DNA from: Luteimonas kalidii
Lineage (GTDB): Bacteria; Pseudomonadota; Gammaproteobacteria; Xanthomonadales; Xanthomonadaceae
Direction: 5' to 3'
Length of the DNA: 64,000 bases
Assembly: GCF_029887935.1 (NCBI RefSeq)
Contig: NZ_JARXRO010000015.1
Location: 1 to 64,000 of the forward strand
Shown in pieces: positions 18,070-30,168 of the stretch. The notes under the pieces were generated by a model. The model did not search any database and was not told the origin of the DNA. It worked only from the letters and a program-made list of their open reading frames with translations. The translations under genes were made by a program, and so were the position numbers. How positions within the stretch are numbered: position 1 is the first letter of the stretch; each line of letters begins with the position of its first letter.

Positions 18070-20928
18070 CTATTGCCCGAACGCGTACTTCGCTTCCAGA
18101 TACACGGCACGACCCAGAATGTCGAAGTAGTAGTTGTTCCAGGGCGTGCCGGTCGTGCCGGGATGGTTCTCCGCCTGCTCATCGGGCATCTTGTTGAGCA
18201 CGTTGTTCACCATCATCGAGAGCGTGAGGTCCTCGGTGGCACGCCAGTTCACACTGGTGTTGTAGGTGATGTAAGGCGCCCACTTGCCGCCCGTCTGCCC
18301 GCTCGGATGCTCGTATCCGTAGCCCTGCGCGTACGCCAGGTAATTCGGCGTTGAGCCGATCCGGTTGGCATACAGGGTCGTGGTCCAGTCGCCCTTCGCC
18401 CATGCGACCGAACCATCGGTGCGGGTCTTGGCGTAGGAGTCGTAGATCCACATCGAGTACGGATCGCGCAGCAGGTCCACCCCCGGTGTCTCCGGAGTGG
18501 CCTGCAGCTTGTGGCGAATCTTGTTGGTGTAATTGCCGGCGAAGGACAGGCTTCCGAAGTTGCCGATGTCCAGCATGTAGTTCAGGCTCGCGGTCACCAG
18601 CTCGAGGCTCTGCTTGGCGATGTTGACCTTCGGCGTATACAGGGAGACCAGCTCGCCGTTCGGTCCGCGCGATACCCATTCCAGGATGTTCTCGCACGCG
18701 GTAATCGGCGTGCCATCCGCTGCCGAGCGGCAGTAGTATTCGCCGCGCATCAAGCCATCGGCACTGATCGAGTCCACCTCGTTCTCGATCTGCCAGCTGT
18801 AGTAGTCCACAGCCATCGACAGGCTGGAGGTAGGCGACCAGACCACGCCGGCATTCCAGACGTCCGCCTCGATCGGCTCAAGCTCGCGGTTGCCGGAGGA
18901 CTGTCCGAAGAACTGCTCGCTGTCCCATGTACAGTCGTCGGTGTTCCCGGGCTCGAAGCCGGCTTCCCCGCAGCGGTAGTAGTCGGTCACCGAGCTGTAG
19001 TACCCGCTGAGACCCTGGAACGTGTCGGCCAGCGACGGCGCGCGGAAAGCGGTGCCGATCTTGCCACGCAGCAGCAGGCTCTCGAGCGGACGGTATTCCA
19101 CGCCCAGGCTCCAGGTCGGCTTGTCCACGGTCTCGTCGGCGATCTCGAATGCGTCGTAGCGTGCCGAAGCGGTGACCGTCAGCGGTTCGAACAACGGCAT
19201 GCGCAGCTCGCTGGTCAGAGAGTAGCGGCTGCGGCGTCCCGCACCGCTTACCGAGGTCTGCCCCCAGATCTCCGAAAGCAGCGTGTCGGGATCCTCGATC
19301 ATGCGGGCGTCCGGGCTGTAGTCCCAACCCTCGTTGCCTACCTCCGCCGCTACCGCGAACCCCGCGTCGCCTCCGGGGAGCGAGAACAGCGAAGTGCTGG
19401 TCAGCTGGAAGTGCGCCAGGTTGTCCCAGGTCCGCGATTCGCTATCGACGAAGCCGGTGAACGAGCGGAAATCCTCCGGATCGATCGGGGAGTAGAACGC
19501 GGCGTAGTCGGGGGTGAAGACGGGGTAGACGCCGAAAAACGGGTCCACGCCCTGCTGCGGGCCGAGCACATTCTCCAGGAAATAGTTGTCGATCGGATCG
19601 CGGAACCTGACCCAGTTGGTTTCGGTCAGGCGGTACTCCGCTCGCGACACGTAGGCGTTGTAGTCCCATTCGCCCAGCATGCCGTTGGCACCGAAGGTGA
19701 CAGTCAAGGCCTTGTTGGTGTCGGTGTTGGTGATGTCGCGGTAGCCCTCGCCGCCGATGTCCTCCGGCGCGAAGGACCGCTGCAGGTTGACCAGTGTGTC
19801 CGGAATGTTGGGATCGTAGAAAGCGCCGAACGTTACGCCGGTTCCCCACCAGGTGTAGTTCGAACCGGTGGCGTATTCCACTTCCTCGTACAGTCCCATC
19901 ACTTCCGCGTACAGCTGAGTAGTGTCGCTCAGATCGAACGTGCTGTAGGAGTAAATCTGACCGGCATCCTTGCCGTTGCGCAAGGTGCGATAGCCCGGAC
20001 TCTGGAACGAACCACAGTAGGTCCCGAAGTTGGGACGCGTGAACTGCTGCGTGCTCCCGCTGAAATTACCGGTGGTGTTCTCGCAGTTGTTGGGATCGGT
20101 GAAGTAGTACGTGCCGTCGAACGCGTCGAGCACCACGAAATCACGGCTGGGAGCCGCGGCAGTGTAGCCATCGAAGTTGTAGGTGCTCGACAGGTCGCGC
20201 TGGTAACCCCACACGGGGTCGCGGGTATCGAGCTGGACGCCTAGGAGGGTGTTGAACCGGCCATCCGCGCTGCTGAAGCTGTCGGCGAAGGTGAAACGGA
20301 CGCTGTCGCCACCACCCTCGCTGAAAAAGCCCCCGCGCACAGAAAACTCACCCTCTTCGACCGTCTTCTTCAGGATGACGTTGACGACGCCGGCGATCGC
20401 GTCCGATCCGTACAGCGACGACTGGCCTCCAGGCAGGACTTCAATGCGGTCGATCAGCGCTACGGGAATGCCGCTGATATTGTTGAACACGTCCGAGCCA
20501 TTGTAGAGGGCTGGGTAATTGGCCATCGGGCGGCCGTTGATCAGATATTTGGTGTAGCCCGGGTCGAGGCCGAACATGCTTGCAGCCTCGGCGCCCTGGG
20601 TGAAGGACGCGCTGGTCTGGCCGCCCTGAATTCCGCCTGTCGCGAAGCTCGATTGCTGGAGAACATCGGAGACGCTCTGGAAGCCGCGCATCTGGATGTC
20701 TTCCGCGGAGATCACGGTCACCGGCGTCGCTGTCTCGATCTGACTCTGCGGGATCAGCGAGCCGGTTACGGTGACCTTGTCGAGGGTGCGGGCGGTGGTC
20801 GGCGTGTCGGAGGCGTCCTGCCCGTCAACGTCCTGGGCGAATCCGGCGCCGGTCGAACTCAGCATTACGGCGGTCATCAGCGCCGAGCTCAGGCGGCTCG
20901 GTCGCGGGCGGGTGTGTCGAATCGTCAT
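18070..20928 (-). CDS. TonB-dependent outer membrane receptor
   Basis: A 952-aa TonB-dependent receptor for uptake of an unknown substrate across the outer membrane. From ATG 20928 it has a signal peptide (SSALMTAVMLSSTGAGFAQ), a linker containing TLDKVTVTGSLIPQ, a plug domain (VTVISAEDIQMRGFQSVSDVLQQSS, then RIEVLPGGQSSLYGSDAIAGVVNVILKK in part), and a long C-terminal beta-barrel ending YLEAKYAFGQ. It resembles the large receptor family expanded in Xanthomonadaceae. The ligand cannot be named; no siderophore or sugar-utilisation genes adjoin. GC content is visibly lower than in the neighbours, as is usual for barrel genes rich in Asn, Tyr and Thr. Confidence 0.9.
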   Translation of the reverse strand: MTIRHTRPRPSRLSSALMTAVMLSSTGAGFAQDVDGQDASDTPTTARTLDKVTVTGSLIPQSQIETATPVTVISAEDIQMRGFQSVSDVLQQSSFATGGIQGGQTSASFTQGAEAASMFGLDPGYTKYLINGRPMANYPALYNGSDVFNNISGIPVALIDRIEVLPGGQSSLYGSDAIAGVVNVILKKTVEEGEFSVRGGFFSEGGGDSVRFTFADSFSSADGRFNTLLGVQLDTRDPVWGYQRDLSSTYNFDGYTAAAPSRDFVVLDAFDGTYYFTDPNNCENTTGNFSGSTQQFTRPNFGTYCGSFQSPGYRTLRNGKDAGQIYSYSTFDLSDTTQLYAEVMGLYEEVEYATGSNYTWWGTGVTFGAFYDPNIPDTLVNLQRSFAPEDIGGEGYRDITNTDTNKALTVTFGANGMLGEWDYNAYVSRAEYRLTETNWVRFRDPIDNYFLENVLGPQQGVDPFFGVYPVFTPDYAAFYSPIDPEDFRSFTGFVDSESRTWDNLAHFQLTSTSLFSLPGGDAGFAVAAEVGNEGWDYSPDARMIEDPDTLLSEIWGQTSVSGAGRRSRYSLTSELRMPLFEPLTVTASARYDAFEIADETVDKPTWSLGVEYRPLESLLLRGKIGTAFRAPSLADTFQGLSGYYSSVTDYYRCGEAGFEPGNTDDCTWDSEQFFGQSSGNRELEPIEADVWNAGVVWSPTSSLSMAVDYYSWQIENEVDSISADGLMRGEYYCRSAADGTPITACENILEWVSRGPNGELVSLYTPKVNIAKQSLELVTASLNYMLDIGNFGSLSFAGNYTNKIRHKLQATPETPGVDLLRDPYSMWIYDSYAKTRTDGSVAWAKGDWTTTLYANRIGSTPNYLAYAQGYGYEHPSGQTGGKWAPYITYNTSVNWRATEDLTLSMMVNNVLNKMPDEQAENHPGTTGTPWNNYYFDILGRAVYLEAKYAFGQ

Positions 20929-21030
20929 GTGGTCTGATTCCAAGTGGGGAAGACAGGCGGACCCATTCCGGACAAGGTCCGGCACACGCGAGGTCCGCGA
21001 AGGATCGGGTGAAGGCCCGACGTCCCGAAC

Positions 21031-22223: not shown

Positions 22224-22265
22224 GCCGGGTTCAGGGCCGCGTGGCCGCAGGGAACTCCGCACCGC

Positions 22266-22838
22266 ATGAGCATCAAGAGCGACCGCTGGATCCGGCGCAT
22301 GTCCGAGCAGCACGGCATGATCGAACCCTACGAGCCGGGTCAGGTGAAGGAAGCCGCCGGCGGTCGCATCGTCAGCTACGGCACCTCCAGCTACGGCTAC
22401 GACGTGCGCTGCTCGCGCGAGTTCAAGATCTTCACCAACATCAACTCGACCATCGTCGATCCCAAACGGTTCGACCCGAAGAGCTTCGTCGACATCGAAG
22501 CCGACGAGTGCATCATCCCGCCCAACAGCTTCGCGCTGGCGCGCACGGTCGAGTACTTCCGCATCCCGCGCGACACCCTGGTGGTGTGCCTGGGCAAGAG
22601 CACCTACGCGCGCTGCGGCATCATCGTCAACGTCACGCCGCTGGAGCCGGAGTGGGAAGGACACGTGACCCTCGAGTTCAGCAATACCACGCCGCTGCCG
22701 GCGCGGATCTACGCCAACGAGGGCGTGGCGCAGATGCTGTTCTTCCAGTCGGATGCCGACGACGTGTGCGAGACCTCGTACCGCGACCGCGGCGGCAAGT
22801 ACCAGGGACAGACCGGCGTCACGTTGCCGAAGACCTGA
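22266..22838 (+). CDS. dcd: dCTP deaminase
   Basis: Deaminates dCTP to dUTP, feeding dTMP synthesis. The 190-aa product has the usual length and the conserved trimer-interface and active-site block [19 protein letters not shown] followed by [11 protein letters not shown] (catalytic Ser/Arg/Glu) and [11 protein letters not shown]. Start ATG 22266 begins [12 protein letters not shown], the standard N-terminus; the upstream open frame overlaps apbC in another phase. It converges on pcp, with a hairpin in the 24-bp gap. Confidence 0.96.
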
Positions 22839-22841
22839 GTT

Positions 22842-22861
22842 GGCGCGCAGCGAGGCGCGCC
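22842..22861. terminator. Bidirectional hairpin between dcd and pcp
   Basis: A perfect 7-bp inverted repeat, GGCGCGC/GCGCGCC with a 6-nt loop, fills nearly the whole 24-bp gap between two convergent genes. No U-tract is present on either side. Confidence 0.45.
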
Positions 22862-22862
22862 C

Positions 22863-23522
22863 CTATTCCGTCGCGCCCGCGCCGATGCGCCGGTCGTGCG
22901 GCGTGCTGAGTGCGACGCGGAGGGCGATGCGCAGCGCTTCCACGATCGATTCCAGCGGCAGCGCGCCCGGGGTGCCCGCGGCGGCGTTGTCGATCGCCGG
23001 AGGGACGTGTACGAAGCCCGCCCGGATCCTGCGCCGGCGAAGCATGTGCATCATGCCGTAGAACACGTGATTGCAGACGTAGGTGCCGGCGCTCTGCGAG
23101 ACTTCGGCCGGAATCCCGGCTTCGCGGATCGCGGCGTACATCGCCTTGATCGGCAGGGTCGAGAAATAGGCCGCCGGGCCGCCGCGCACCACGGCGAGGT
23201 CGACCGGCTGGCGGCCCGCGTTGTCGGGGATGCGGGCATCGTCGACGTTGATCGCCACGCGCTCGAGCGAGATCTTGTCGCGACCGGAGGCGAGGCCCGT
23301 GCACAGCACCAGCGCGGGACGCACCTCGAGGATCGCGCGCCGCAGCGCATCGCGCGCCACGCCGAACTCGACCGGCAGTCGACGCGCGACCACGCGATGA
23401 CCCGCGATCTCCTCCCCATCGAGCACGCGCGCCGCGTCCCAGCTCGGATTGCCCGCGGCGCCGTCGAACGGCGCGAAGCCGGCAAGCAGCACGTGGCGCA
23501 TGCGTGGGTGCCGGGTGCTCAT
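22863..23522 (-). CDS. pcp: Pyroglutamyl-peptidase I
   Basis: Cytoplasmic cysteine peptidase that removes N-terminal 5-oxoproline (pyroglutamate) from peptides. The 219-aa product has GFAPFDG near the N-terminus and the full catalytic triad of family C15: Glu87 in ISLERVAIN, Cys150 in SAGTYVCNHVFYG and His172 in GFVHVP. ATG 23522 overlaps the DUF979 stop (ATGA); an internal ATG at 23501 is the alternative. As last gene of the operon it provides the 5-oxoproline that PxpABC hydrolyses. Confidence 0.95.
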   Translation of the reverse strand: MSTRHPRMRHVLLAGFAPFDGAAGNPSWDAARVLDGEEIAGHRVVARRLPVEFGVARDALRRAILEVRPALVLCTGLASGRDKISLERVAINVDDARIPDNAGRQPVDLAVVRGGPAAYFSTLPIKAMYAAIREAGIPAEVSQSAGTYVCNHVFYGMMHMLRRRRIRAGFVHVPPAIDNAAAGTPGALPLESIVEALRIALRVALSTPHDRRIGAGATE

Positions 23523-24472
23523 CGGAAGACGATCAGGTACATCAGCACGATATTGCACGCCAGCAGCGGCAACGCGGTGGCGACCTGCTGGCGGATCACC
23601 GCATTGGGGTCCTTGAGTTCCAGCAGCGCGGCGGGCACCAAATTGAAGTTCGCCGCCATCGGCGTGAGCAGGGTGCCGCAGTAGCCCGAGAGCATGCCGA
23701 TCGCGGCCAGCGGCGCGGCATCGGCCCCGTGCAGCTGCACCAGCAGCGGCAGGCCGATGCCCGCGGTCATCACCGGGAAGGCGGCGAAGGCGTTGCCCAT
23801 GACCATCGTGAACAGCGCCATGCCCAGCGCGTAGGCGAGTACCACCACGAAGCGGTTGTCGACCGGGATCGCCATTTCCACCAGCGCCGCCACCGCCTCG
23901 CCCACGCCCGCGGCCGCGAACACGCCGCCCAGCGTGGCCAGCAGCAAGGGCAGCAGCGCGGCCCAGCCGACGGCATCGATCAGCCGACGCGACTGCTCCA
24001 CCGCGCTCCAGGGCGTCTGCCGCGTCAACCGGCAGGCGGCGACCGCCGCGACCACGCAGGCGATGCCGAGCGCGACCAGGGTGGTCTGCTCGCGCCCCAG
24101 CAGGTAGACGCCGCCGAAGGCCACGTCCTTCAGCACCACCGCCAGCAGCACGCAGACCCCGGGGATCAGCAGCGCAGGCCAGAACAGGCGGTTGCCCAGG
24201 CGCGTGGCTTCGATCCGTTTCGCCTCGTCCGAAGGCTCGTCGTAGCGCCCGCGACCGAGCCCTCCGAATCCGGCCAGGCAGGCCAGCACCACGACCACGA
24301 CGCCGACCACGACGGGCGCCAGCCGGTCCGCTGCCAGGAACATCAGCCCGAGCAGACCCCAGAACAGCGCGGTCGCGTGGCGGCGCGGATTGTGGCGATC
24401 GCGCAGGCCGAGCGCGGCCACCGCCAGCAGGTAGATGCCGGCGAGCCAGTAGATCATCTGCAGGGTGATCAC
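23519..24472 (-). CDS. DUF979 family membrane protein
   Basis: A 317-aa polytopic inner-membrane protein of the DUF979 family, with about nine or ten hydrophobic segments (for example IYWLAGIYLLAVAALGL, APVVVGVVVVVLACLAG and the C-terminal ALPLLACNIVLMYLIVF). The TMVMGNAFAAFPVMTAGIG and GYCGTLLTPMAANFN segments look like transporter re-entrant or substrate-site motifs. DUF969 and DUF979 genes are typically paired and linked to pcp, so the two are a presumed transporter for 5-oxoproline or its peptides; this is inference. GTG 24472 overlaps the DUF969 stop (GTGA); ATG 24457 is an alternative. Confidence 0.88.
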   Translation of the reverse strand: MITLQMIYWLAGIYLLAVAALGLRDRHNPRRHATALFWGLLGLMFLAADRLAPVVVGVVVVVLACLAGFGGLGRGRYDEPSDEAKRIEATRLGNRLFWPALLIPGVCVLLAVVLKDVAFGGVYLLGREQTTLVALGIACVVAAVAACRLTRQTPWSAVEQSRRLIDAVGWAALLPLLLATLGGVFAAAGVGEAVAALVEMAIPVDNRFVVVLAYALGMALFTMVMGNAFAAFPVMTAGIGLPLLVQLHGADAAPLAAIGMLSGYCGTLLTPMAANFNLVPAALLELKDPNAVIRQQVATALPLLACNIVLMYLIVFR

Positions 24473-25176
24473 GCGGCCGGTTCCCGGTTTGCCGCGTCCC
24501 GCAGTGCCGCTGCCTCGCGCGCAAGCTGCGCGTCCATCCGCAACAGCCGCGAGGCGTGGATGAGGAAGGCGCAGATCGCCGTGGGAATGCCCCACAGCGC
24601 GATGTGTAACGGTTCGAGCACGATGCCGTGTTCGGCGAAGAAGCCCTGCATCAGCAGCACCGCGCCGAAGGCGATGAACACGTCTTCGCCGAAGAAGCGG
24701 CCGACGTTCTCGCTGGCGGCGGTCATCGCCTTGATCCGCTCACGGGTGGCCTCCGGCAACCTGCCGTGGGCGTTCTCGGCGGCACCGACCGCCATCGGAG
24801 CCATCAGCGGGCGCACCGTCTGCGCGTGCCCCCCGAGATCGACCAAGCCCAGTGCCGACAGCAGTTGCCGGCCGCCCAGATACGCCGTGAGCGCGCGACC
24901 GGCGGTGGCACCGCGCAGGCGCGCGATCCACTGCTGCGCGCGTTCCTTCAGGCCGTGGCGCTCGAGCAGGCCGATCGCCGGCAGCGTGAGCAGGAACAGC
25001 GCGAGGTAGCGCTGCTTGGTGAAGGCCTCGCCGATCAGCGCCAGCACGTCCAGCGGGGCGATCCCCGCGAGCAGGCCGGTGGCGATGCCGGCGGCCACCA
25101 CCACCAGCGCGGGATTGAGCCGCAGCACGAAGCCGAGGACGACCAGGGCGATGCCGAGCAGCGGCCACCAGTTCAT
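24469..25176 (-). CDS. DUF969 family membrane protein
   Basis: A 235-aa polytopic membrane protein of the DUF969 family, partner of the DUF979 protein encoded next. It begins MNWWPLLGIALVVLGFVLRL and contains further membrane segments with FLLTLPAIGLLERHGLKERA, GGHAQTVRPLMAPMAVGAAE and FFGEDVFIAFGAVLLMQGFF; the charged residues inside these helices suggest a transport role. Start ATG 25176 overlaps the pxpA stop by ATGA. Its position between pxpA and pcp supports a link to 5-oxoproline uptake or export. Confidence 0.88.
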   Translation of the reverse strand: MNWWPLLGIALVVLGFVLRLNPALVVVAAGIATGLLAGIAPLDVLALIGEAFTKQRYLALFLLTLPAIGLLERHGLKERAQQWIARLRGATAGRALTAYLGGRQLLSALGLVDLGGHAQTVRPLMAPMAVGAAENAHGRLPEATRERIKAMTAASENVGRFFGEDVFIAFGAVLLMQGFFAEHGIVLEPLHIALWGIPTAICAFLIHASRLLRMDAQLAREAAALRDAANREPAA

Positions 25177-25928
25177 GCCGCCGCGTCCGGTGCGAGAACG
25201 CGGATGCCTTCGGCTTCCAGCGCGGCCCGCAGCGCGGCGGCGAAGCGCGGTGCGTCCGGGCGATCGCCGTGCAGGCACAGGGTGTCGGCGCGCAGCGGGA
25301 CACGACTGCCGTCGAGCGCGACCACCACACCCTCGCGCAGCATCGTGCGGACCTGGGCCAATGCCGCTTCGAGGTCCTCGATCACCGCGCCGGGAAGGTC
25401 GCGTGGCGTGAGGCGGCCATCGGCGCCGTAACTGCGTTCGGCGAAGGCTTCCTCGGCGACGGGCAGGCCGGCGAGACGACCGGCCTCGGCCAGGGCCGAG
25501 CCGGACAGCGCGTACAGCCGCAGCGTCGGATCGATGGCATGGACCGCCGCCGCGATGGCATCGGCGACGTCGATGTCGCGCGCAGCGAGGTTGTACAGCG
25601 CGCCGTGCGGCTTGACGTGCCGCAGGCGCGCGCCAGCGGCGTCGCAGAGTGCCGCCAGCCGCCGTACCTGGGCCAGTACCAGGACGTGGATGGCGCCGGG
25701 GCCGAGGCCGAGTTCGCGCCGGCCGAAGTGCTCGCGATCGACGAACGACGGGTGCGCGCCGATCGCCACGCCATGCGCAAGGCACAGCGCGACAGCTGCC
25801 TGCATGGTCTCGTCGCTGCCGGCATGGCCGCCGCAGGCGATGCTGGCCGAGCTGATGTGCGGCACGATCGCGGCGTCGTCGCCACAGCCTTCGCCGAGGT
25901 CGCAGTTGAAGTCGATGCGGTCAGGCAA
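25173..25928 (-). CDS. pxpA: 5-oxoprolinase subunit A (LamB/YcsF family)
   Basis: Subunit of the ATP-dependent prokaryotic 5-oxoprolinase PxpABC, which opens 5-oxoproline to glutamate. The 251-aa protein shows the family signature: DFNCDLGEG at the N-terminus, SIACGGHAGSDETM, GAHPSFVDREHFGRR, HVKPHGALYN and LCLHGD near the C-terminus. The start appears to be TTG 25928, as the conserved N-terminus MPDRIDFNCDLGEG begins there and no ATG is available; it overlaps the pxpC end by 8 bp. Confidence 0.94.
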   Translation of the reverse strand: MPDRIDFNCDLGEGCGDDAAIVPHISSASIACGGHAGSDETMQAAVALCLAHGVAIGAHPSFVDREHFGRRELGLGPGAIHVLVLAQVRRLAALCDAAGARLRHVKPHGALYNLAARDIDVADAIAAAVHAIDPTLRLYALSGSALAEAGRLAGLPVAEEAFAERSYGADGRLTPRDLPGAVIEDLEAALAQVRTMLREGVVVALDGSRVPLRADTLCLHGDRPDAPRFAAALRAALEAEGIRVLAPDAAA

Positions 25929-26883
25929 GTGCGCGCTTCGCGTCGAGGGCCAGCGCGATTCTATGCAGGCGCTGGCGCTGGCGGCAAAGCGCGTCGCGGG
26001 CCTCGCCGGGCGTGCAGGGCGCGAAGCGCACCCGGTCGCCGGGCCGCAGCTGGGCCAGCAGCGGCCAGTCGGCGCGGATCGCGTGGCCGATGCGCGGGTA
26101 ACCGCCGTGCGTCTGGGCGTCGGCGAGCAGCACGATGGGCTGGCCGTCGGCCGGCAGCTGGATCGTGCCGGGCATCACCGGTTCGGAGACGCGCTCGCCG
26201 CCATCGGCCGCGGTGAGCACGGGCCCCGCCAGCCGCAGCCCCTGACGATTGCTGTCGGCGCGCACGGTCCAGGCGCGGCCGTGCAGCGCAGCGGGTGGCG
26301 CGGTCGCGTCGCTGCCCGGCAGGACGCGCACCAGCGGCTCCGCGCCCGCGGGCCGGTCGTCGAACGCCGGGTCGATCCACCACGGTGCGATGTGCAGCGT
26401 CGCGGCCCCGGCGGACGGTGCGGCAAGCGCCAGGCGGTCGCCCCGGCACAGGGCGCGGCCCGCGTGGCCCCCGAATCCGCCGCGCAGGTCGGTGCTCGCG
26501 CTGCCCAGGATCGCCTCGGAGCGCACGCCGCCTGCGATCGCCAGGTAGGCGCGGGCGCCTTCCGTGCAGCGGCCGATCCGCAGCGTGCTGCCGGGGGGCA
26601 GGTCGAGCGGACGATGGCCGGGCACCGGCGCGCCGCCGACTTCGGCGTCGACCGGGGCGCCGCACAGTGCGATGCGCGCCGCGCGGTGGAAGCGCAGCGT
26701 CGGGCCCGACAGGGTGATCTCCAGTGCCGCGGTGCCGGCGGGATTGCCGACGACCAGGTTCGCAAGCGCGAAGGCCCACGGATCCAGCGCACCCGCGCCG
26801 CCGACGCCGAGATGACGCAGGCCCTGGCGACCGCCGTCCTGCAGCAGCGTCGCCAGCCCCGGCGAGAGGACTTCGATGCTCAT
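25921..26883 (-). CDS. pxpC: 5-oxoprolinase subunit C
   Basis: Biotin-dependent-carboxyltransferase-like (AHS2) subunit of 5-oxoprolinase. The 320-aa product begins IEVLSPGLATLLQDGGRQG, followed by GVGGAGALDPWAFALANLVVGN, both characteristic of PxpC, and has the C-terminal MPGTIQLPADGQPIVLLADAQT and GGYPRIG motifs. ATG 26883 overlaps the pxpB stop (ATGA). PxpB and PxpC are fused in some organisms (as in urea amidolyase-type proteins); here they are separate but coupled. Confidence 0.94.
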   Translation of the reverse strand: MSIEVLSPGLATLLQDGGRQGLRHLGVGGAGALDPWAFALANLVVGNPAGTAALEITLSGPTLRFHRAARIALCGAPVDAEVGGAPVPGHRPLDLPPGSTLRIGRCTEGARAYLAIAGGVRSEAILGSASTDLRGGFGGHAGRALCRGDRLALAAPSAGAATLHIAPWWIDPAFDDRPAGAEPLVRVLPGSDATAPPAALHGRAWTVRADSNRQGLRLAGPVLTAADGGERVSEPVMPGTIQLPADGQPIVLLADAQTHGGYPRIGHAIRADWPLLAQLRPGDRVRFAPCTPGEARDALCRQRQRLHRIALALDAKRALA

Positions 26884-27593
26884 GCCGCGCCGCGCCCGCA
26901 TGCGGCGCGGAACGCGGCCTCGTCGATCGCCACGAAGCGCACGCGCGCGCCGGCCGGCAGCAGGCAGGGCGGATCGCGACGGGGGTCGAACAGCGCGACC
27001 GGCGTGCGCCCGACCAGATGCCAGCCGCCCGGACCTTCGCGCGGATAGATGCCGGTCTGGGCGCCGCCGATCGCCACGCTGCCGGCGGGCACGTGGGTGC
27101 GCGGCGTACTCCGGCGCGGAATCGCAAGGCGCGGGTCGAGTCCGAGCAGGTACGGGAAGCCCGGAGCGAACCCGGTCATCGCCACCCGGTAGTCGCCCGC
27201 GCAATGCAAGGCGACCACCTCGGCCGCGGAGAGTCCCGCGTGCGCGGCCACCGCCTCCAGGTCGGGTGCGAACGCCGGGAGATGGCAGACCGGCACCTCG
27301 ATCGCCGGCAGGGAGGCCTCAGGCGATGCGTGCGGTTCGTCATCGCCCGCCAGCAGGGCACGCAGCGCTTCCGCCGCATAACCCGTGTCGTGGAGGCGAT
27401 CGCAGGCGTCCTGCGCGAGGCAGACCGCGAGCGATGCGTACGCCGGCACCACTTCGCGCACCCACGGCAGCCCGGCCGCCTCGATCCGCCGCACCAGCGC
27501 GTGCACGCGCGCGTTCACGGCCGGATCGATGCGGCGGTCCAGGCGCAGCAGCAGCGCGTCCTCGCCGAGCGGCTCGATCGTGAGGCCGCTCAC
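26880..27593 (-). CDS. pxpB: 5-oxoprolinase subunit B
   Basis: KipI-like (AHS1) subunit of 5-oxoprolinase. The 237-aa product has the family signature MTGFAPGFPYLLGLDPRLAIPRR (in part), HVPAGSVAIGGAQTGIYP and GPGGWHLVGRTPVALFDP. Start GTG 27593 overlaps the HIT gene stop by GTGA. Bacillus KipI regulates sporulation kinase, but in this gene context the 5-oxoprolinase role is far more likely. Confidence 0.94.
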   Translation of the reverse strand: MSGLTIEPLGEDALLLRLDRRIDPAVNARVHALVRRIEAAGLPWVREVVPAYASLAVCLAQDACDRLHDTGYAAEALRALLAGDDEPHASPEASLPAIEVPVCHLPAFAPDLEAVAAHAGLSAAEVVALHCAGDYRVAMTGFAPGFPYLLGLDPRLAIPRRSTPRTHVPAGSVAIGGAQTGIYPREGPGGWHLVGRTPVALFDPRRDPPCLLPAGARVRFVAIDEAAFRAACGRGAA

Positions 27594-28015
27594 GCGCGCA
27601 GCGCGGCCTCGAGCAGGCGGATGCGCCCGACCAGCGCGTCGGGCGAGTACGGGCGCGCGGCCACGCGCCCCCAGACCGGCGCCGGCCAGGCGGGATCGTT
27701 CTCGAAGCGTGCGATCACGTGCACGTGCAACTGCGGCACCAGGTTGCCCAGGGCGGCCACGTTGAGCTTGAACGGGTGGAAGACCTCGCGCAGCGCGCGT
27801 CCGGCCAGATCAATCTCGTCGGTCAGGCGGTGGCGCTGGGTGGCGTCGAGGTCGAGCATTTCGCGCGCGCCGGCCACGCGCGGCACCAGCACCAGCCACG
27901 GGTAGTTGGCGTCGTCCATCAGCCGCAGCTCGCACAGGTCGAGCGTGGCGAGTGGATGGGTATCGCTCGCGAGCTGCGGATCGAGCGCGTAGGGGCCGTG
28001 GGCATTCGTGTTCAT
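27590..28015 (-). CDS. HIT domain protein
   Basis: A 141-aa histidine-triad superfamily protein, probably a nucleotide hydrolase or transferase. The triad region reads QLHVHVI (residues 95-101): the first His of the classic H-x-H-x-H is Gln95, while His97 (nucleophile position) and His99 are kept. A long helix with LTDEIDLAGRALREVF precedes it as in the fold. ATG 28015 overlaps the dienelactone hydrolase stop (ATGA). Its link to 5-oxoproline use is unknown; the tight coupling suggests co-expression at least. Confidence 0.88.
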   Translation of the reverse strand: MNTNAHGPYALDPQLASDTHPLATLDLCELRLMDDANYPWLVLVPRVAGAREMLDLDATQRHRLTDEIDLAGRALREVFHPFKLNVAALGNLVPQLHVHVIARFENDPAWPAPVWGRVAARPYSPDALVGRIRLLEAALRA

Positions 28016-28701
28016 GGTGCCTCCGGGCCGCGCAGCGCGGCATCGAGGAAGGCCAGCGTACGCTTGCGCGCAAGCGCCGCGCTGGCTGGATGGAAGTGGC
28101 GGGGATCGACGTCGCGGTTGAAGGCATGGCCGGCGCCGGGATAGACGTGGATCTCGGCTTCGGGCCACGCGTCGCGGTGGGCCTGGATGTCGTCCGCGGG
28201 GGTCGTCGCGTCCTCTCCTCCGAAGTGGAACAGCATCGGCGCCCGCAGCGGTTCTCCCAGAAACGGGCGCGAGCGCGCGCCGTAGTAGGACACCGCCGGC
28301 AACCCGAGCCGTGTATTGGCGAGCAGAGCCATGCTGCCGCCCCAGCAGAAGCCGGCCACCGCCGTCTTCAGGCCCTCGCCGCGCAGCTGCTCCGCCGCGG
28401 CCCCGATCACCGCCACCGCCCGTCCGGTGCCCAGTTCCTCGACGAGCGCCCGTCCGCGCGCGAAGCCGGCCTCGTCGTAGCCCAGCTCGACATTGCGGGC
28501 CACCGGGTCGAACAGCGAAGGCGCCAGCGCCACGTAACCGGCCGCCGCGAACCCCTCGGCCACGCTGCGGATATGGGCGTTGACGCCGAAGATCTCCTGC
28601 ACCACCACCACCGCGCCCAGCGCGGCGGCGTGTCCGGGCGGATCGGCGCGCCAGGCGTCGGCCGGCCCCTGCGGCCCGTGGATGACGATGTCGCGGCCCA
28701 T
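28012..28701 (-). CDS. Dienelactone hydrolase family protein
   Basis: A 229-aa alpha/beta hydrolase of the dienelactone hydrolase family. The catalytic set is visible: nucleophile Cys119 in GFCWGG, Asp164 in GGEDATTP, His192 in GAGHAFN, and Glu36 in VVVQEIFGV, the residue that controls the Cys in DLH. Substrate is unknown; members include carboxymethylenebutenolidases and general esterases. It is the first gene of the eight-gene minus-strand operon and diverges from rimO over a 102-bp gap. Confidence 0.9.
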   Translation of the reverse strand: MGRDIVIHGPQGPADAWRADPPGHAAALGAVVVVQEIFGVNAHIRSVAEGFAAAGYVALAPSLFDPVARNVELGYDEAGFARGRALVEELGTGRAVAVIGAAAEQLRGEGLKTAVAGFCWGGSMALLANTRLGLPAVSYYGARSRPFLGEPLRAPMLFHFGGEDATTPADDIQAHRDAWPEAEIHVYPGAGHAFNRDVDPRHFHPASAALARKRTLAFLDAALRGPEAP

Positions 28702-28728
28702 GCGCAGGCTCCATCCGGCGGAGGCCCG

Positions 28729-28748
28729 ATTCTAGCCGAGGCTATAAT
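28729..28748. promoter_or_regulatory. Divergent -10 boxes between DLH operon and rimO
   Basis: A perfect TATAAT (28743-28748, plus strand) lies 55 nt before rimO, and TAGAAT on the minus strand (28734-28729) lies 28 nt before the hydrolase start. Neither has a good -35 hexamer. The close packing implies that the two promoters compete or are co-controlled. Confidence 0.45.
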
Positions 28749-28803
28749 TCGCGCCCCGTGACGCGTCGGTGCGTCGCGCGTCCCCGTCCGCGTCCGGTCC
28801 CTC

Positions 28804-30168
28804 ATGCCCGCTGCCAGTCCCAAGGTCGGTTTCGTCAGCCTCGGCTGCCCCAAGGCGCTGGTGGATTCCGAGCGCATCCTCACCCAGCTGCGGGTCGAGG
28901 GCTACGACCTGGTCCAGAGCTACGACGATGCCGACGTGGTGGTGGTGAACACCTGCGGCTTCATCGATTCGGCGGTGGCCGAATCGCTGGATGCGATCGG
29001 CGAGGCGATGGCCGAGAACGGCAAGGTGATCGTGACCGGCTGCCTGGGCAAGCGTTCGGAGCTGATCCGTGAACAATACCCGGACGTGCTCTCGATCAGC
29101 GGGCCGCAGGACTACGACAGCGTGATGGGCGCAGTGCATCGCGCGTTGCCGCCGACGCACGATCCGTTCCTCGACCTGCTACCGCGGCGCGCGCGCGAGG
29201 ACGAGGTCGGCATCAAGCTCACGCCGAAGCACTACGCGTATCTCAAGATTTCCGAAGGCTGCAACCATCGCTGCAGCTTCTGCATCATCCCCTCGATGCG
29301 CGGCGACCTGGTCTCGCGCCCGGTGGACGAGGTGCTGCGCGAGGCCGAACGGCTGGTCGAGCGCGGCGGGGTGCGGGAACTGCTGGTGGTCTCGCAGGAC
29401 ACGTCCGCCTACGGCGTCGACCTGCGGTACGCCGAACGGGAATGGCGCGGCCGCGCGTATCAGACGCGGATGAAGGCGCTGTGCGAGGGCCTGTCCGAAC
29501 TGGGCGTGTGGACGCGGCTACACTACGTGTACCCGTACCCGCACGTGGACGACACCATCCCGCTGATGGCCGAAGGCCGCCTGCTGCCCTATCTGGACAT
29601 CCCGTTCCAGCACGCCAGCCCGCGCATCCTGCGGCTGATGAAGCGCCCGGGCGCGGTGGACCGGGTGATCGAGCGCATCGCAAGCTGGCGCGCGATCTGC
29701 CCCGAACTGACGATCCGCAGCACCTTCATCGTCGGCTTCCCCGGCGAGACCGAGGCCGAGTTCGAGGAACTGCTCGATTTCCTGCGCGAGGTGCGGCTGG
29801 ACCGGGTCGGTGCGTTCGCCTATTCGCCGGTCGCGGGCGCCACCGCGAACGCGCTGCCCGATGCCGTGCCCGAGGCGGTGAAGCAGGCGCGGCTGGCGCG
29901 GTTCATGGAGGTGCAGGCGGAGATCTCCGCGCAGAAGCTCGAAGCGAAAGTCGGCAGCGTGCAGCGCTGCCTGGTCGACCTGGTCGACGGCGAGCTCGCC
30001 ATCGCCCGCTCGATGGCCGATGCGCCGGAGATCGACGGCGTGGTGCAGGTGCAGGATGGCCGCGATGCTGGACTGCAACCGGGAGACTTCGTCGACGTGC
30101 GGATCCTGGGCAGCGACGAGCACGACCTGTACGGCGAGACGCTCGCGCCGCTGCGCGTGCTGGACTGA
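28804..30168 (+). CDS. rimO: Ribosomal protein S12 methylthiotransferase
   Basis: Radical SAM methylthiotransferase that modifies Asp88 of ribosomal protein S12. The 454-aa protein has the N-terminal cluster cysteines Cys15, Cys51 and Cys80, the radical SAM motif CNHRCSFC (Cys153, 157, 160), and a C-terminal TRAM domain from about residue 385. The [14 protein letters not shown] opening and GDLVSRP segment are typical of RimO, not of MiaB. It is a single gene facing greB. Confidence 0.95.

Follow-up and report, generated by a model that had tools for sequence, protein, structure and literature searches.

Why should a gene for a dienelactone-hydrolase-family enzyme (DLH) and a gene for a HIT-domain protein stand at the head of an operon for the use of 5-oxoproline, a damaged form of glutamate? 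This question was raised by a 64,000-nucleotide stretch of the Luteimonas kalidii genome (contig NZ_JARXRO010000015.1, positions 1 to 64,000), called the window in the following. Its minus strand carries eight open reading frames (ORFs) from 28701 to 22863, in the order DLH, HIT, pxpB, pxpC, pxpA, DUF969, DUF979 and pcp. A first, sequence-only reading had described these eight genes in this order on one strand, which was borne out by an ORF check. It had also proposed that DLH and HIT handle a related lactam, a lactone or an adenylated intermediate. This proposal was not supported. Instead, the operon very probably consists of two modules: the DLH-HIT pair, and a 5-oxoproline cassette which would have joined it downstream of HIT ahead of the diversification of the window's family and would have been lost often since.

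In a profile search each of the eight operon proteins exceeded its Pfam cut-off. The genes of the operon and the two neighbours used as boundary markers are listed here.

28012..28701, minus strand: DLH, dienelactone-hydrolase-family enzyme, operon gene 1; PF01738 113.6 bits; aligned to 1din
27590..28015, minus strand: HIT, HIT-domain protein with the variant triad QLHVHV; PF01230 56.8 bits (cut-off 21.5)
26880..27593, minus strand: pxpB, 5-oxoprolinase subunit; PF02682 240 bits; TIGR00370 187.8 (cut-off 145.55); 5dud_B among its solved relatives
25921..26883, minus strand: pxpC, 5-oxoprolinase subunit; PF02626 282 bits; TIGR00724 256 (cut-off 230.2); solved relative 5dud_A
25173..25928, minus strand: pxpA, 5-oxoprolinase subunit (LamB/YcsF); PF03746 284 bits; 1xw8, E 2.7e-68
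24469..25176, minus strand: DUF969 protein, half of a putative 5-oxoproline transporter; PF06149 294 bits
23519..24472, minus strand: DUF979 protein, other half of the putative transporter; PF06166 397 bits
22863..23522, minus strand: pcp, pyroglutamyl peptidase I; PF01470 235 bits; TIGR00504 253 (cut-off 201.75); 4gxh
28804..30168, plus strand: rimO, divergent neighbour, boundary marker outside the operon; TIGR01125 559 bits, above the equivalog cut-off
22260..22838, plus strand: dcd, convergent neighbour, boundary marker outside the operon; TIGR02274 157 bits, above the equivalog cut-off

Distribution of the DLH-HIT pair and the pxp genes

The presence of the genes was determined in 149 genomes of the window's family with cut-offs of E 1e-3 for DUF979, 1e-10 for HIT, 1e-20 for DLH and 1e-15 for pxpC. 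HIT was found in 146 of these genomes, DLH in 140 and pxpC in 66. All 66 genomes with pxpC contained HIT, as did 80 of the 83 without it; for DLH the counts were 62/66 and 78/83. Thus, co-occurrence with pxpC beyond chance was found neither for DLH (p 1.0) nor for HIT (p 0.25) in Fisher tests on this sample, in which relatedness is ignored. The linkage of DLH and HIT to pxp genes is not confined to this strain, as the sequence-only reading had considered, but is family-wide; the decisive control, however, is provided by the genomes without pxp.

In order to compare both kinds of genome, 140 HIT-centred loci of the family were used, excluding the window, three genomes without HIT and five in which HIT lies on a short contig (G007, G066, G110, G120, G136). 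DLH adjoined HIT in 56 of 58 loci where pxpC lies behind HIT, and in 79 of the other 82. Both genes overlapped in 39/55 measured junctions with pxp and in 57/80 without. For these counts the start nearest the aligned start was taken; loci lacking an identified gene or start, and those with a distance outside -150 to +300, are omitted. rimO lay within 4 kb of HIT in 48/58 loci with pxpC and 75/82 without (123/140 overall). dcd was seen in 109 of the 140 stretches, and with dcd in view the median distance from HIT to dcd was 5343 bp with pxp (35 loci) versus 507 bp without (74 loci). Since adjacency, overlap and closeness to rimO are alike with and without pxp while the HIT-dcd gap differs, the DLH-HIT pair is a fixed feature and pxp an optional stretch between HIT and dcd.

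At L150, L153, L174, L206 and L208 HIT lies beside rimO without an adjacent DLH, and these genomes have no DLH match. At L235 (genome G101) the matches to HIT, DLH and DUF979 are each split in two, which suggests sequencing errors or decay.

Could DLH and HIT nevertheless be working parts of the 5-oxoproline pathway, DLH opening a lactam or lactone and HIT clearing an adenylated intermediate? Both stand at the front of the operon with overlaps of 4 bp, and among the 58 family loci in which pxpC lies behind HIT, pxpB is the gene directly after HIT in 57. Moreover, this junction also occurs in six genomes of a second family, and two genomes of a third carry pxpB about 4.2 kb upstream. Against these points stands the lack of association with pxpC in the family, together with the unchanged place and overlap of the pair where pxp is missing. 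Furthermore, excerpts of PMC13274462 describe phosphorylation by PxpB/PxpC and a γ-glutamyl phosphate step in the 5-oxoprolinase reaction; therefore, an adenylate is not expected.

Genomes beyond the family were searched with cut-offs of E 1e-12 for HIT and pxpB and 1e-20 for DLH. The order sample comprised 141 genomes, 118 of them from other families. Both DLH and HIT were present in 38 of these 118 genomes and adjacent in 37 of the 38. Sixteen of the 37 had no pxpB match. Among the other 21, pxpB came next after HIT in six, all from one family (f182), and was not found there in 15. The class sample of 274 genomes, three of them from the window's family, was evaluated by reading the tables by eye. 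Its other families showed no adjacent DLH-HIT (8 genomes with both genes) and no adjacent HIT-pxpB (18 with both); the pairs sharing a contig (3/8 and 5/18, respectively) were more than 200 kb apart, and the remaining pairs were split between contigs, so that they may still adjoin across a contig break.

Named genomes were surveyed at the best 80 of 593 DUF979 loci. HIT stood beside pxp in 10 of these 80, accompanied by DLH in 9 of the 10. Of these 10 loci, five were Luteimonas or LUTEI1-tagged, three Lysobacter, one Coralloluteibacterium and one a Lysobacterales bin. The complete order DLH-HIT-pxpBCA-DUF969-DUF979-pcp recurs in Luteimonas, Lysobacter and Coralloluteibacterium records among these 80, and the closest named record by DUF979 is Luteimonas saliphila with 97% identity. 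In the other 70 loci, outside the Luteimonas/Lysobacter-like group, the stretches covered contain a single HIT gene, which lies on the opposite strand, and no DLH.

Because their distribution is independent of pxpC, DLH and HIT were rejected as 5-oxoproline pathway enzymes; on the family, order and named-genome distribution this role is highly improbable. By its occurrence DLH-HIT appears to be an older gene pair, divergent from rimO, of an order which the named records identify as Lysobacterales/Xanthomonadales. As the first module of the operon it would have a separate task of its own.

Inheritance of the pxp genes

The pxp genes may have reached their position once or repeatedly. In 45 loci the pxpC distances tracked the rimO distances with a rho of 0.53, a value reached by none of 500 permutations. 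The corresponding values were 0.62 for pxpB, 0.57 for HIT and 0.42 for DLH. A rimO tree was built with 123 rows, namely the window and those 122 of the 140 loci with a usable rimO. On this tree the pxp label changed 20 times, compared to a mean of 38 changes for shuffled labels; the count does not separate gain from loss. Because the pxp distances follow rimO and the labels change less often than shuffled ones, we infer that pxp was inherited with the chromosome and lost many times. The second module would thus have been attached behind HIT before the family diversified and passed down from there.

Alternatively, several independent transfers could have brought the pxp cassette into the HIT-dcd gap. 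Its patchy presence, seen in the label changes on the rimO tree, would agree with this, as would the other families, where pxpB has a position other than behind HIT in most genomes with pxp. On the other hand, the agreement of pxpB and pxpC with rimO is about as good as that of HIT and exceeds that of DLH. In addition, 44 of 56 measured HIT/pxpB junctions show an overlap, which repeated insertion could hardly reproduce.

A further point against repeated transfer comes from L120, which resembles a remnant of loss. This locus has no pxp, and a DUF885 gene occupies its HIT-dcd gap. The gene is 79% identical to the copy of L123, a locus of the same genus; L123 and L115, also of this genus, bear pxp and have the DUF885 gene between pxpC and pxpA. 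Possibly, L120 is the scar of a pxp loss. Taken together, independent repeated insertion is less likely than descent with losses, and we regard it as improbable.

DUF885-family proteins of about 600 amino acids are encoded between pxpC and pxpA in ten loci in total (L115, L118, L123, L127, L145, L147, L157, L196, L199 and L200). They were found by tblastn with the L123 copy (PF05960, 303.6 bits). DUF885-like genes occur at other positions in L120, L143, L146, L213 and L249. Such a protein was not seen among the eight operon genes of the window.

Proteins, junctions and promoter of the operon

The DLH protein contains a PF01738 domain. The Cys in GFCWGG, the Asp in GGEDATTP and the His in GAGHAF align with 1din, and we take these residues to form the catalytic Cys-Asp-His triad. 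At the nucleophile position Cys was found in 132 of 136 family DLH loci and Ser in 2; in the remaining 2 the pattern was missing. Since Cys, Asp and His are retained in the alignment, DLH is likely an active hydrolase. The HIT protein is different. Canonical HIT hydrolases carry the triad motif H-x-H-x-H, which is incomplete here: in QLHVHV the first His is replaced by Gln. The Gln is present in 139 of 140 family loci (135 detected by pattern, 4 by eye), with Pro at L208. Solved relatives of the protein are 3ohe, 3i4s, 3nrd, 3i24 and 2oik, and 3ohe and 3i4s also have Gln at the first triad position. Therefore, the window protein is, judged by its motif, a HIT-fold variant and not a canonical HIT hydrolase.

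The subunit families of PxpABC (PF02682, PF02626 and PF03746) are present together, each far above the cut-off. PxpB passes the NCBIfam model TIGR00370 and PxpC the domain model TIGR00724. PxpA passes the subfamily models NF003814 (281.1, cut-off 226) and NF003816 (221.4, cut-off 213). YbgL, YbgJ and YbgK are among the solved relatives of the pxp-encoded proteins. Pcp contains a C15 domain and scores above the cut-offs of both PF01470 and TIGR00504. Its segments ERVAIN, GTYVCNHV and GFVHVP align with 4gxh and presumably provide the catalytic Glu, Cys and His, respectively.

The genes for DUF969 and DUF979 lie side by side in the window. DUF979 was found in 58 of the 66 family genomes with pxpC and in 1 of the 83 without (Fisher p 2.6e-31, again ignoring relatedness). 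Conversely, 58 of the 59 family genomes with DUF979 also have a pxpC match. The sole exception is G004 (L003), which carries DUF979 and DUF969; this pair is about 55% identical to that of the window and could serve another substrate. A sequence search up to E 1 yielded no solved relative of DUF979. In the excerpts of PMC11467057 DUF979 is assigned to an ion transporter superfamily and a heteromer with DUF969 is predicted. According to those of PMC12795558, 5-oxoproline no longer served a Campylobacter jejuni cj0552-4 mutant as nitrogen source in a preliminary growth test; the mutation also covers a DUF2891 gene. PMC6904757 cites DUF969/DUF979 as involved in pyroglutamate transport of B. subtilis. 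The near-complete co-occurrence with pxpC strengthens the case for DUF969/DUF979 moving 5-oxoproline.

By the families present, the DUF979-pxpC co-occurrence and the cited literature, pcp, pxpBCA and DUF969/DUF979 can be assigned as a known kind of 5-oxoproline cassette. Both this unit and the two-part putative transporter had been postulated in the sequence-only reading, and both found support here. In the proposed pathway DUF969/DUF979 would import 5-oxoproline, Pcp would trim it from peptides and PxpABC would open it to glutamate with ATP.

Not all pxp loci of the family follow this scheme. In L135, L139, L153, L163 and L186 the stretch from HIT to dcd contains pxpBCA, none of DUF969, DUF979 and pcp is in view, and the genomes have no DUF979 match. 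This suggests that they carry a form of the 5-oxoprolinase without the DUF969/DUF979 transporter.

These five loci fit a further explanation, a damage-control operon for internal clean-up without this uptake. DLH, HIT and PxpABC would then clear three different unavoidable by-products, namely reactive esters or lactones, adenylated side products and 5-oxoproline, respectively, and would be grouped under one promoter for steady basal expression and not for a common pathway. Excerpts of PMC13274462 state that 5-oxoproline forms spontaneously in cells, which agrees with such a role. But HIT is without the first His of its triad, DUF979 is retained in most family genomes with pxpC, and DLH and HIT are equally frequent without pxp. 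This explanation is therefore considered unlikely. If it were true, the lineages with pxpBCA but without DUF969/DUF979 and Pcp would represent its internal-repair form.

How closely are the genes of the two modules joined? With suitable start codons, chosen from the sequence alone, all seven junctions can overlap, as the sequence-only reading had maintained (4 bp, once 8 bp). The least-overlapping start codon at each junction is given here.

DLH/HIT: 4 bp, HIT start ATG 28015
HIT/pxpB: 4 bp, pxpB start GTG 27593
pxpB/pxpC: 4 bp, pxpC start ATG 26883; the alternative ATG 26901 gives 22 bp
pxpC/pxpA: 8 bp, pxpA start TTG 25928
pxpA/DUF969: 4 bp, DUF969 start ATG 25176
DUF969/DUF979: 4 bp, DUF979 start GTG 24472; the alternative ATG 24457 gives a gap
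DUF979/pcp: 4 bp, pcp start ATG 23522; the alternative ATG 23501 gives a gap

Of the 47 co-directional neighbour pairs in the window, 23 have a start capable of overlap, as do 16 of the 40 outside the operon, a background obtained with a crude gene caller trained in part on the operon's own genes. The run of seven overlaps is the longest in the window, followed by one of four. Because overlap-capable starts are common in this window with its GC content of 71%, the run is notable but not extraordinary.

Upstream of DLH one candidate promoter element was detected.

28729..28734, minus strand: TAGAAT, -10-like hexamer in the rimO/DLH gap, 33 nt upstream of the DLH start

Hexamers were accepted up to 110 bp upstream with at least five of six matches to TATAAT and with the first T, the A and the last T fixed. 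They were present upstream of DLH in 19/56 loci with pxp, in 17/80 without and in the window. The corresponding counts were 7/140 for HIT, 0/58 for pxpB, 0/58 for pxpC and 2/48 for pxpA. These counts lend modest support to a single promoter at the head of the operon. A consensus scan of 22700-28900 yielded no full promoter-like site upstream of DLH, and a scan of the operon region for terminators found none. Probably, pxp shares the transcript of DLH-HIT and not its chemistry. The second module would use the transcription of the first and, through the overlapping starts, its translation as well.

Several observations weigh against two modules joined in this way. First, pxpC lies behind HIT in 61 of 66 family genomes, which is tighter than a chance neighbourhood demands. 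These 61 comprise the window, the 58 loci and, judged by coordinates, G007 and G120. In the other five, HIT and pxpC are about 31 kb apart (G034) or on different contigs (G030, G092, G114 and G126). Second, in G471 (contig 52) and G477 (contig 19), both from family f181 and both among the 15 order genomes without pxpB directly after HIT, pxpB stands on the same strand upstream of DLH; therefore, the nearness of pxp to DLH-HIT is wider than the HIT/pxpB junction alone. Third, the 20 label changes on the rimO tree, 6 of them forced by well-supported branches, leave some room for repeated gain at one site. Fourth, the NCBIfam equivalog models for PxpC and PxpA stay under the cut-off: NF045499 scores 241.7 versus 500 for PxpC, and the best of three models for PxpA reaches 294.7 versus 337. 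Finally, the -10-like element accompanies DLH in just 37 of 137 upstream regions, and the sole promoter-like match of the consensus scan in 22700-28900 is located within pxpC (25987-25958).

Other neighbours in the window were scanned for domains and showed no link to the operon. Beyond dcd and apbC, a TonB-dependent receptor gene (PF00593, PF07715) is located at 18070-20985 on the minus strand.

Comparison with known systems

Overall, the operon is neat but of an ordinary kind. Since DLH and HIT overlap as often in genomes without pxp, tight overlap alone is a poor guide to function. The locus extends the known 5-oxoproline cassettes with DUF969/DUF979 by one lineage. Within the family the same locus exists naturally with and without pxp, which is useful for tests of transport and expression. 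Among the papers listed in literature searches on 5-oxoprolinase, dienelactone hydrolase and HIT, no title or abstract opening mentioned a linkage of DLH or HIT to pxp.

The DLH-HIT pair has the same order and strand across the order as in the window, and within the family it also shares the overlap habit and the neighbour rimO. Unlike in the window, pxpC does not follow it in 82 of the 140 family loci. The solved HIT proteins 3ohe, 3i4s, 3nrd and 3i24 align with the window HIT over 111 to 120 residues, and the motif VPQLHxH is common to the window protein, 3ohe and 3i4s.

The PxpABC clusters of B. subtilis, C. difficile (pxpAGBC) and C. glutamicum (pxpTABC), as presented in excerpts of PMC13274462, likewise combine genes for the enzyme subunits with a transporter gene. 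The window enzyme and those of these clusters are expected to convert 5-oxoproline to glutamate in an ATP-dependent reaction. The putative transporter of the window is DUF969/DUF979, whereas theirs is the NRAMP-like PxpT/YcsG/PxpG. Moreover, the window adds pcp and the DLH-HIT head, and no regulator is found among its eight genes. A DUF969/DUF979 pair as in the window is reported in PMC12795558 for Campylobacter (cj0552-3), in PMC11467057 for Clostridioides (Q186N2/Q186N4) and in PMC6904757 for Bacillus. Those pairs have been tied to 5-oxoproline use and proposed as a heteromeric transporter.

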